From contig JABDLJ010000005.1 of the NCBI GenBank assembly GCA_013003075.1, positions 39,268 through 103,267 on the forward strand: 64,000 bases of DNA, given 5' to 3'. The position numbers and the translations under genes were made by a program. Below, in pieces: positions 39,585-55,333 of this stretch. Source of the stretch: Paracoccaceae bacterium (GTDB lineage: Bacteria; Pseudomonadota; Alphaproteobacteria; Rhodobacterales; Rhodobacteraceae). A model generated the notes under the pieces. That model was not told the DNA's origin. It did no database searches and saw only the letters and a list, made by a program, of their open reading frames with translations. The first letter of the stretch is position 1. Every line of letters starts with the position of its first letter.

Positions 39585-39985
39585 GTGCGCGGATGGCTGG
39601 ATGATCGCGGGTAGGGCAGGGCAACCTGCCACGGCCCGAGGAAAGTCCGGACTCCATGAAGCAACGGTGCCGGGTAACGCCCGGCCGGGGAAACCCGAGG
39701 GAAAGCGCCACAGAAATCAGACCGCCGCGGATCCGTCCGGGGCAAGGGTGAAACGGTGGGGTAAGAGCCCACCGCGGGACTGGCAACAGGACCGGCACGG
39801 CAAGCCCCACCGGGAGCAATGCCAAATAGGGACCTCGCGCGGGCCGTAAGGCGCCGCAGGGCCGCTTCAGCCCAGAGGTCCGGGTTGGCAGCTAAAGCGC
39901 GCTGGTAACGGCGGGCTTAGACGAATGATCATCCAGGGGCGGCGTGCCGCCCGGGACAGAATCCGGCTTACAGGCCATCCGCGCG
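39585..39985 (+). ncRNA. rnpB: RNase P RNA (bacterial type A)
   Basis: Conserved 'gaggaaagtccggactcc', 'gaaagcgccacagaaa', 'acagaatccggcttacaggcca'; P1 helix gcgcggatggc (39587-39597) pairs gccatccgcgc (39974-39984). Confidence 0.95.
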
Positions 39986-40177
39986 TTTTCACCCCCTCAC
40001 CGGGGTAGTTTGATTTCAGGCAAAATACCGTATAGATTGAAAAATTATGAGGTCCACACAACTAAAAGAAGATTGTTTCTTGTCTGGCCGCTGAAAAAGC
40101 TTATCTGACACCTGTTAACCATTCAGCAATTTGACTATGCTCCCCAAGGCCCCGAAGTCTCGCCGAAAGCTCGGTCT

Positions 40178-45885: not shown

Positions 45886-45993
45886 GATGGCAGCGGGGCG
45901 GGCCGCCACCCCGGCGCAGCCACGCCGCACCGATCCTTGACCGCGCCCGCCAGGATCGGATAACGCCGCTGCATGGCAATTCGGGCGGTCCCC

Positions 45994-46791
45994 ATGACAG
46001 ACATCCGCGGATACGCGACCCATGATGCGCTTGCGCTTGCAGGCCGGCTGGCCGATGCCGCGCGCATCGAGACGCTGCGCTATTTTCGCACCGACCAGCT
46101 CGCGACCGAAAGCAAAGAGGCGCAGTTCGATCCGGTAACGGTGGCCGACCGCGCCGCCGAGGCCGCGATGCGCGATCTGATCGAAGCCGAGCGGCCGCAG
46201 GACGGCATCCTCGGCGAGGAATATGACGACAAGCAATCCCGCTCTGGCCTGACATGGGTGCTCGATCCGATCGACGGCACCCGCGGCTATATCAGCGGCA
46301 CACCGACATGGGGCGTCCTGATCGCGCTCTGTGACGAGACCGGGCCGCGCCTTGGGATCATCGATCAGCCCTATATCGGCGAACGCTTCATCGGCGCTCC
46401 GGGCCTGGCGCAGCTGCAGGGCCCGCAAGGCCCGCGCAGCCTGAAGGCGCGCGCGCCCCGTGCGCTTGGCGAGGCGACGCTCTTCACCACCTTCCCCGAG
46501 GTCGGCACCGCCGCAGAGGGCGCTGCCTTTGCGCGCGTGGCCGCGGCCGCGCAGCTGGTGCGATACGGCACCGACTGCTATGCCTACGCGCTGCTTGCCG
46601 CGGGACAGATCGATCTCGTTATCGAGGCCGGACTCAACCCATACGATATCTGCGCGCCGATCGCGGTGATCGAGGCGGCCGGCGGCATCGTCACCGACTG
46701 GACCGGCGGTGCGGCCCATGGCGGCGGCCGCGTCATCGCCGCTGCAAACCCGCAGATCCACGCCGACGCGCTGGTGCTGCTTGCCGGATAG
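45994..46791 (+). CDS. Inositol-monophosphatase family / histidinol-phosphatase HisN-like
   Basis: 'ILGEEYDDKQSRSGLTWVLDPIDGTRGYISGTPTWG', 'YDICAPIAVIEAAGGIVTDW'. Confidence 0.88.
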   Translation: MTDIRGYATHDALALAGRLADAARIETLRYFRTDQLATESKEAQFDPVTVADRAAEAAMRDLIEAERPQDGILGEEYDDKQSRSGLTWVLDPIDGTRGYISGTPTWGVLIALCDETGPRLGIIDQPYIGERFIGAPGLAQLQGPQGPRSLKARAPRALGEATLFTTFPEVGTAAEGAAFARVAAAAQLVRYGTDCYAYALLAAGQIDLVIEAGLNPYDICAPIAVIEAAGGIVTDWTGGAAHGGGRVIAAANPQIHADALVLLAG

Positions 46792-46833
46792 CCCGCGGGT
46801 TTGCTAGAAGGGCTGCGCCGGGCAGGTCCTTCC

Positions 46834-46893
46834 CACTCTTTTCTGTCGCCCGGGACGCGGCGTTTGGTCCGAAAAGAGTGCCAGGACCAAACG
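46834..46893 (+). promoter_or_regulatory. Candidate structured 5' leader: two crossing perfect 10-bp inverted repeats next to the SD
   Basis: cactcttttc (46834-46843) / gaaaagagtg (46871-46880); cgtttggtcc (46861-46870) / ggaccaaacg (46884-46893); SD ggag 46893-46896. Confidence 0.65.
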
Positions 46894-46904
46894 GAGACTT
46901 CTCG

Positions 46905-48248
46905 ATGTCACAAATCCTGATCAAGGGCGCGGCGCTTTGCCTGACGATGGACGATGCGCAAAGCGAATTAACAGGCACCGATATCCTTCTGGAAAACGGG
47001 GCTATTTCCCGCATCGGACCGGGCCTCGATGCGCCGGGGGCCGAGCGCGTCGAAGCCGCTGGCTGTCTTGTCACGCCGGGGCTTGTGAACACGCACCATC
47101 ACCTGTTCCAGACCCTGACCCGCGGGGTGCCGGGCGGGCAGGACGCGCTGCTGTTCGGCTGGCTGCAGACGCTCTATCCGATCTGGGCGCGCTTCGGTCC
47201 CGACGAGATGCGCGTCTCGGCCAGTATCGGGCTGGCCGAGCTGGCGCTGTCCGGGTGCAGCCTGTCGTCCGATCACCTCTACCTTTTTCCCGGCGGCGCG
47301 CGGCTCGATGACACGATCGAGGCGGCGCAGGACATCGGGCTGCGCTTTCATCCCACCCGCGGCGCGATGAGCATCGGGCAAAGCGCCGGTGGGCTGCCGC
47401 CGGACCGGCTTGTAGAGCGGGAAGGCGCGATCCTGGAGGACTGCATCCGGGTCATCGACACCTTCCACGACCCAAAGCCCGGGGCGATGGTGCGTGTCGG
47501 CGTGGCGCCGTGCTCGCCGTTTTCGGTCAGCCGCGAGCTGATGCGCGATGCGGCGCTTCTGGCGCGCGACAAGGGCGTTCGGATGCACACCCATCTGGCC
47601 GAAAACGACGAGGACATATCCTATTCGCTTGCCACGTTCGGATGCCGCCCGGGGCAGTATGCCGAGGATCTGGGCTGGACCGGCGCGGATGTCTGGCACG
47701 CCCATTGCGTCAAGCTCGACAGCGCAGAGATCGATCTTTTCGCGCGCACCCGCACCGGGGTGGCGCATTGCCCGTGCTCGAACTGCCGGCTTGGCTCTGG
47801 CATTGCGCCGGTGCGCGCGATGCGCGATGCCGGCGTTCCGGTGGGCCTGGGTGTCGATGGCTCGGCCTCCAACGACAGCGGCAACCTTGTGGCCGAGGCC
47901 CGCCAGGCGATGCTTCTGCAAAGGGTGTCGCGCGGCGCCGATGCGATGAGCGCGCGCGAGGCGCTGTGGATCGCCACCCGGGGCGGCGCCGAGATCCTCG
48001 GGCGCGACGATTGCGGCCAGATCGCGCCCGGCAAGCGCGCCGATATCGCGATCTGGGATCTTTCGGGCGTCGAGAGCGCGGGAAGCTGGGATCCCGCCGC
48101 CCTGCTGCTCGCCGGTCCTACCGCGGTGCGCGATCTTTTCGTCGAAGGCCGCCAGGTGGTGCGGGACGGGCAGATCGCAACCCTCGATCTGGGCCGCCAG
48201 ATAGAGACGCAGAACCGCCTTGCCGCCGCGCTTGCCGCCGCAAGCTAG
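46905..48248 (+). CDS. Amidohydrolase, 8-oxoguanine deaminase / AtzA-TrzN family
   Basis: 'VTPGLVNTHHHLFQTLTRG', 'MHTHLAENDEDISYS', 'GLGVDGSASNDSGNLVAEARQAMLLQRV'. Confidence 0.87.
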   Translation: MSQILIKGAALCLTMDDAQSELTGTDILLENGAISRIGPGLDAPGAERVEAAGCLVTPGLVNTHHHLFQTLTRGVPGGQDALLFGWLQTLYPIWARFGPDEMRVSASIGLAELALSGCSLSSDHLYLFPGGARLDDTIEAAQDIGLRFHPTRGAMSIGQSAGGLPPDRLVEREGAILEDCIRVIDTFHDPKPGAMVRVGVAPCSPFSVSRELMRDAALLARDKGVRMHTHLAENDEDISYSLATFGCRPGQYAEDLGWTGADVWHAHCVKLDSAEIDLFARTRTGVAHCPCSNCRLGSGIAPVRAMRDAGVPVGLGVDGSASNDSGNLVAEARQAMLLQRVSRGADAMSAREALWIATRGGAEILGRDDCGQIAPGKRADIAIWDLSGVESAGSWDPAALLLAGPTAVRDLFVEGRQVVRDGQIATLDLGRQIETQNRLAAALAAAS

Positions 48249-54022: not shown

Positions 54023-55333
54023 ATGACCAAAGCCGACACACCGCAGCTGATCCTTGGCCAGACGTTGGCCTTTTCGGGCGATCCTTTCGCCGAGGGGCTG
54101 GCCGCGGCCCGGCACGAGCGGCGCGGCGGCGTCCTGATCCGGGGCGGCGTGATCGAAAAGGTCGGCGCCGCCGAGGCGCTGCGCGCCGCCAATCCGCAGG
54201 CCGCGGTCACCGATCATGGCGAGGCGCTTTTGTGCGCGGGCTTCGTGGATGCGCACGCCCATTACCCTCAGACGCCGATCATCGCCAGTTGGGGCAAGCA
54301 GCTGATCGACTGGCTGAACACCTATACCTTTCCCCAAGAGATGCGGTTTCAGGACGAGGCCTATGCCGCCGAGGTCGCGCACCGATACCTCGACCTGGTG
54401 CGCGCGCATGGCACGACGACCGTCTGCAGCTATTGCACGATCCATCCGCAAAGCGTGACCGCGTTCTTCGAGGCGGCCGCAACCCGCAACATGCGGGTGC
54501 TGGCGGGCAAGACCTGCATGGACCGCAACGCGCCGGATGGCCTGAAAGACACCGCGCAATCGGCCTATGACGACAGCAAGGCGCTTCTGGAGCGCTGGCA
54601 CGGGCAGGGCCGCGCGTCATACGTGATCACGCCGCGGTTTTCGCCCACCTCGACGCCAGAGCAGCTGTCGGCGCTGGGTGCGCTTTGGGCCGAGCATCCT
54701 GGGTGCCTGATGCAGACGCATCTTTCCGAGCAGACCGACGAATGCGCGTGGGTGGCGCGGCTCTACCCCGAGGCGCGCGATTATCTCGATACCTACGAGA
54801 TGCACGGGCTCTTGGGCGCTGGCGGGCTTTACGGGCACGCCATCCACCTGACCGACCGGGAAAAGGCGCGGCTGCTCGAGACCGGCGCGTCGCTCATCCA
54901 CTGCCCGACCTCCAATACCTTCATCGGCTCGGGGCTTTTCGACATGGACGGGCTCAGATCGGCCGGACACAGCGTCGGTCTTGCGACCGATACCGGGGGC
55001 GGGTCGTCCTTTTCGATGCTGCGCACCATGGCCTCGGCCTACGAGATCGCCCAGCTGCGCGGCCGCGCGCTGCACCCGGCAGAGCTTGTCTGGCTGGCCA
55101 CCCAAGGCTCGGCCCGGGCGCTGAAGATGGACCGCAGGATCGGCAATCTCGCGCCGGGGCTGGAGGCCGATATCGTGGTGCTGGATCTGGCCTCGACACC
55201 GGCCATTGCGCAGGCGGCCGAGCGCGCCGACACGATCTGGGCGGCGGTCTTTCCAACCATCATGATGGGCGATGACCGGGCGATCCGGCAAACCTACATC
55301 GCGGGCCAGCCTGCGCATGCGGGCGCGGGCTGA
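54023..55333 (+). CDS. guaD: Guanine deaminase
   Basis: 'LLCAGFVDAHAHYPQTPIIASWGKQLIDWLNTYTFPQE', 'MQTHLSEQTDE', 'GLATDTGGGSSFSMLRTM'. Confidence 0.92.
   Translation: MTKADTPQLILGQTLAFSGDPFAEGLAAARHERRGGVLIRGGVIEKVGAAEALRAANPQAAVTDHGEALLCAGFVDAHAHYPQTPIIASWGKQLIDWLNTYTFPQEMRFQDEAYAAEVAHRYLDLVRAHGTTTVCSYCTIHPQSVTAFFEAAATRNMRVLAGKTCMDRNAPDGLKDTAQSAYDDSKALLERWHGQGRASYVITPRFSPTSTPEQLSALGALWAEHPGCLMQTHLSEQTDECAWVARLYPEARDYLDTYEMHGLLGAGGLYGHAIHLTDREKARLLETGASLIHCPTSNTFIGSGLFDMDGLRSAGHSVGLATDTGGGSSFSMLRTMASAYEIAQLRGRALHPAELVWLATQGSARALKMDRRIGNLAPGLEADIVVLDLASTPAIAQAAERADTIWAAVFPTIMMGDDRAIRQTYIAGQPAHAGAG

Follow-up and report, generated by a model that had tools for sequence, protein, structure and literature searches.

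NMT1, a riboswitch of the OFF type that responds to xanthine and urate, controls related purine-oxidation genes (PMC7373994). Like the leader studied here, it is a proteobacterial leader of purine-oxidation genes, including one for an 8-hydroxyguanine/guanine deaminase-like protein, PRK12393 (PMC7373994), but its published model is a two-stem junction with other conserved bases and no pseudoknot, and the gene at our locus belongs to PRK08203. The preQ1 and SAM-II riboswitches resemble our leader in having a pseudoknot aptamer beside the Shine-Dalgarno (SD) sequence, probably also with loop contacts in the deep groove, whereas in our leader a helix of its own (P3), and not the pseudoknot helix, holds the SD. 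Guanine-family riboswitches, which form a three-way junction with a loop-loop contact and include variants that bind 8-oxoguanine, share with it a possible purine ligand. In the SAM/SAH riboswitch, the pseudoknot involves the SD. This element (RF01727) is also a small pseudoknot leader, exclusive to the Rhodobacterales and located before a single gene, metK (PMC2864571), but it differs in its gene and in having no third helix over the SD.

The leader precedes a deaminase gene in the 64-kb stretch of DNA analysed here (the window, to which coordinates refer; its features given below lie on the + strand). The gene (46905..48248) was assigned to 8-oxoguanine deaminase by the NCBIfam equivalog model PRK08203 (672.7 bits, cut-off 532), in agreement with a preliminary description of this locus. 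The nearest solved structures of its product are 7ww2, an 8-oxoguanine deaminase, and 3hpa. Relatives of the enzyme take 8-oxoguanine, guanine and isocytosine as substrates (PMC6186785), and a sister cluster that includes one Rhodobacteraceae enzyme hydrolyses N2,N2-dimethylguanine (PMC13054789). The predicted substrate in these bacteria is 8-oxoguanine. The window also encodes another amidohydrolase at ~54125-55204 (+; G000:C18:93392-94471), which shares 27% identity with the deaminase.

The preliminary description had proposed a cmscan-type check against Rfam. With all 4227 families of Rfam 15, no match was found in the leader at the gathering score or up to an E-value of 10, nor in seven related leaders up to an E-value of 1. 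In particular, neither the leader nor its relatives matched the NMT1/xanthine covariance model (NMT1 being assumed to be among the Rfam families) or the purine, preQ1 and SAM-II families. Identity with the SAM/SAH riboswitch was rejected, as RF01727 matches its own site elsewhere in the genome (60.7 bits) and not the leader; that site lies outside the window, at contig C45:66111-66160. The window's sole Rfam match at the gathering threshold is a class A bacterial RNase P RNA at 39589-39986 (+; 277.6 bits). A literature search of limited coverage found no paper that joins "8-oxoguanine deaminase" with "riboswitch" or describes the element, and the main text of the 26- and 50-genome ncRNA surveys contains no such motif; the motifs of the 224-motif study are reportedly included in Rfam. 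As judged from its sequence and these comparisons, the leader is a previously uncatalogued RNA structure and a candidate for a new riboswitch class.

Architecture of the leader RNA

The preliminary description was built on two perfect 10-bp inverted repeats, stem A (46834-46843 with 46871-46880) and stem B (46861-46870 with 46884-46893), both of which are present as described. Single repeats of this kind are less rare than it supposed: the window carries eight with loops of 3-40 nt, against 4.8 +/- 2.1 expected from first-order Markov shuffles. Its further point, that two together are very unlikely to arise by chance, holds up, as stems A and B are the sole crossing 10-bp pair in the 64-kb window and no such pair appeared in 60 first-order Markov shuffles of it. 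The two stems are two of the three helices, P2 and P3, of a conserved leader RNA; helix P1, which belongs to the same structure, had been overlooked.

P1 is a covarying helix formed by CCGGGC (46818..46823) and GCCCGG (46848..46853), and in the window its six Watson-Crick pairs are followed on the loop side by an A46824.C46847 mismatch and a G46825-U46846 wobble. Stem A supplies the arms of P2 (46834..46843 and 46871..46880, with consensus cores at 46836-46843 and 46871-46878), and stem B those of P3 (46861..46870, located as an inverted repeat, and 46884..46893, supported by a permutation-tested stem score). Column counts mark as conserved the loop GUCCUU (46826..46831; 82 non-redundant leaders) and the UG between the 5' arm of P2 and the 3' arm of P1 (46844..46845). 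The SD, recognised by its sequence GGAG (46893..46896), adjoins the 3' arm of P3, and G46893 is both the final base of stem B and the first G of the SD; this GGAG and the ATG at 46905 had been correctly placed downstream of stem B.

The hairpin loop of P1 contains the 5' arm of P2 and the hairpin loop of P3 contains its 3' arm, hence P2 is a loop-loop pseudoknot of the two hairpins. The elements are ordered as the 5' arm of P1, GUCCUU, 0-6 variable nucleotides, the 5' arm of P2 (CCNYUUUC), UG, the 3' arm of P1, a linker with the 5' arm of P3, CC, the 3' arm of P2 (GAARRGGG), variable nucleotides, the 3' arm of P3 with the SD, and the start codon. In orthologues, the linker from P3 to P2 often measures 2-5 nt and that from P2 to P3 mostly 4-10 nt. 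In 11 of 69 leaders, the window's included, the former linker is 0 and the 5' arm of P3 runs straight into P2.

Strain had been invoked in the preliminary description to argue that stems A and B exclude each other. This argument is not supported, as the orthologues are roomier and the conserved CC could span the required distance in a kissing-hairpin geometry: in A-form geometry ~10-12 A crosses the deep groove over 7-8 bp, with ~12 A for an 8-bp P2, and two nucleotides can bridge that distance. In the window, CC (46869-46870) makes up the inner two pairs of stem B and is probably a linker once P2 forms; these pairs could open for that role. Since P1, P2 and P3 may all coexist, strain alone favours no exclusive states, and the "candidate new RNA switch" of the preliminary description survives as a conserved, covarying and uncatalogued cis-regulatory candidate, shorn of its strain-based two-state case. 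Because the leader forms a pseudoknot, its minimum free energy folding (z = -0.49) is not informative. Pairing of the GUCCUU loop with the SD region, which that folding suggested, was rejected as a conserved switch partner, being feasible in just 36 of 94 leaders with G-U pairs allowed.

Covariation, distribution and promoter context

Orthologous loci were collected from GTDB genomes and from a sample of the family with a single genome for each genus, and 220 nt upstream of each start were read. The deaminase gene is present in 303 of 397 Rhodobacteraceae genomes (one per genus), and the motif is common to about half of the collected leaders. Similarity search with the leader DNA recovered one relative only among the 397 genomes, so a structure-aware search was needed. 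At a score of at least 32.9 bits, the covariance model found the element in 85 of the 397 genera, with one off-target match and all others at the deaminase gene. Weaker matches, which were checked by locus or against deaminase coordinates, raise the count to about 100 of the 303 gene-carrying genera. In these, 11-39 nt separate the element core from the deaminase start that follows it. No convincing copies before other genes were found in the 397 genomes, where non-deaminase matches reach at most 34 bits and those inspected lack the motif; a second model (R2, the less common type) run in search of such copies gave strong matches at the deaminase locus only. Matches in a class-wide sample of 386 genomes were confined to the same family.

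Covariation across orthologous leaders, which the preliminary description had named as a check, is present for both P1 and P2. Two alignments were used, one of 41 leaders made with MAFFT from sequence alone and one of 93 distinct leaders fitted to P1 and not to P2, so that the latter checks P2 independently and the former P1. In the MAFFT alignment, double changes were found in six of the seven pairs of P1 and four of the eight of P2, with a covariation score of 0.439 against 0.187 for shuffled data and 0.10-0.23 with the arms slid. The 93-leader alignment yielded double changes in all seven pairs of P1 and a score of 0.449; shuffling gave 0.180, with none of 500 shuffles reaching the observed value, and sliding the arms gave 0.07-0.20. 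Both sides had changed in 236 cells, against 86 expected. The compensatory changes in the helices include G-U pairs.

P3 sits at a variable distance and was therefore tested by permutation, in which the downstream (3') regions were swapped among the 82 non-redundant leaders; its mean stem score is 17.7, compared with 12.0 +/- 0.36 and a maximum of 13.1 in 200 permutations. Of the 69 leaders bearing P3, 52 have an SD-like site that shares two or more nucleotides with the 3' arm of this helix, consistent with the position of stem B at the SD that had been reported for the window. Masking of the SD by P3 is strongly suggested by this arrangement; it is not universal, because some compact leaders lack a clear P3. 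In these compact forms, found in Octadecabacter and its relatives (L049, L051, L063, L095, L096, L097 and L103), P1 and P2 lie directly before the SD with little or no P3, and they are the smallest candidates for structure work.

Upstream of P1 lies a putative -10 box, TAGAAG (46805..46810), and an 18-nt spacer separates it from a putative -35 box, TTGCCG (46781..46786), a consensus match that would be weak if taken alone. A -10-like box ends 4-11 nt 5' of P1 in 81 of 93 leaders, with a mean score of 9.8 against 7.1 +/- 1.2 for shuffled sequences, and from this spacing the transcript probably begins with P1, at a predicted start of ~46815-46818 on the 5' edge of that helix. The preliminary description had stated that a start downstream of stem A would refute the switch; the predicted start lies upstream of all helices. 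The conserved upstream neighbour is hisN (45973..46791; TIGR02067, over the cut-off), which precedes the deaminase gene in 73 of 80 related loci (L033-L112). The gap between the two genes measures 94-191 nt in 36 of 37 loci with the element (478 nt in the remaining one) and less than 30 nt in 24 of 36 loci without it. The element accompanies room for a putative separate deaminase promoter; since the genes are mostly less than 30 nt apart in the element-less loci, the hisN transcript probably serves for deaminase translation there.

These data bear on the idea that the repeats have no function as RNA and are either operators at the DNA level or palindromes due to chance. Single 10-bp inverted repeats are common enough in the window (8 against 4.8 expected) for that to be conceivable, but the helices cross each other and carry compensatory changes including G-U pairs, their variable arms flank constant loop bases, and the element lies downstream of the predicted start. 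The operator or chance reading is contradicted by the covariation of P1 and P2 and by the permutation results for P3, and we regard it as extremely improbable.

Near-invariant bases and two sequence types

In the 82 non-redundant leaders, the near-invariant bases are CUU in the P1 loop, UUC of P2 paired with GAR, the G that follows P2, and CC, and they are grouped at the junction of P1 and P2. The CUU of the loop would lie alongside GAA, in parallel orientation, within the deep groove of P2, an arrangement that would permit C+.G-C and U.A-U triples.

Such a grouping weighs against two other explanations of the leader. A protein, either the deaminase itself or another RNA-binding protein, might bind the leader and control translation, as association with one gene is typical for autogenous leaders. 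To our knowledge, however, amidohydrolases of the deaminase's family include no RNA binders, and near-invariant bases gathered at a helix junction are rather a feature of metabolite aptamers, which makes control by a protein quite unlikely. Only marginally more probable, and still doubtful, is a ligand-free structure that acts as a thermosensor, folds according to ions or pH, or is simply a fixed translation brake: the SD-masking P3 could melt, and contacts of the C+.G-C type could confer pH dependence, but neither a thermosensor nor a fixed brake calls for a conserved pseudoknot or for near-invariance of bases in the loop and junction.

The leaders fall into two sequence types, one combining CCUU, CUG and GAA (74 of 94) and the other UCUU, CCG and mostly GAG (17 of 94). 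The loop base before CUU (C or U) and the junction base after the 5' arm of P2 (U or C) switch together in four of four supported independent pairs on the deaminase tree; this coupled change is suggestive, the pairs being too few for significance. The UCUU/CCG/GAG type is found in L042, L044, L070, L076, L083, L100, L107 and others, and the type changed several times on the deaminase tree. The two types may mark different ligand specificities.

Proposed control of deaminase translation

The leader is probably a switch on deaminase production. A covarying pseudoknot core, near-invariant loop bases, a predicted mRNA 5' end, an SD helix and exclusivity to one gene together make it a candidate translational riboswitch. 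We put at roughly 0.55 the probability that the segment 46818-46896 acts as such a riboswitch, in which a ligand-stabilised P1-P2-P3 fold blocks the start (OFF). In this scheme, the segment would be the 5' end of the deaminase mRNA, and hairpins P1 and P3 would pair through their loops (P2) as a kissing hairpin or double pseudoknot. An aptamer-like core would be built from P1, P2 and the conserved GUCCUU, UG and CC, while P3 would take up the SD. A small molecule near the deaminase reaction would stabilise this fold and thereby deny the ribosome access to the start. The mismatch within P1 of the window counts against a riboswitch, and an enzyme that removes damaged bases is more naturally induced by its substrate than repressed, which counts against OFF control.

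The latter point fits an ON switch, in which the substrate, 8-oxoguanine or a related base, would bind the P1-P2 pseudoknot and P2 would open P3, freeing the SD. Such control suits an enzyme with a catabolic or protective role, and full P2 and full P3 do compete in the leaders where the linker is 0. The linkers of most leaders, however, permit P2 and P3 together, and known pseudoknot leaders beside the SD are mostly OFF switches, which leaves the ON arrangement unlikely, though the strongest of the competing accounts. By analogy with those leaders and with NMT1, OFF is slightly favoured over ON, by about 60:40.

Because one gene only is associated with the element, gene context narrows the ligand through the enzyme alone; it points to 8-oxoguanine, guanine, xanthine, urate or isocytosine, and our bet is a purine close to the substrate or product of the enzyme. 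A more specific proposal is put forward tentatively: the leader would represent a new riboswitch class with an intramolecular kissing-hairpin pseudoknot, its ligand would be 8-oxoguanine or urate, the product of 8-oxoguanine deamination, and it would set the level of deaminase translation.

Rfam 15 lacks this RNA family, which covaries strongly and which, within a large bacterial family, was linked in each verified case with a single enzyme that removes oxidised purines, an association that yields a short ligand list. An SD-bearing hairpin locked to an aptamer hairpin by loop-loop pairing would be a compact design. Should 8-oxoguanine, urate or a related base prove to be its ligand, the leader would reveal how these bacteria gauge oxidised nucleobases.
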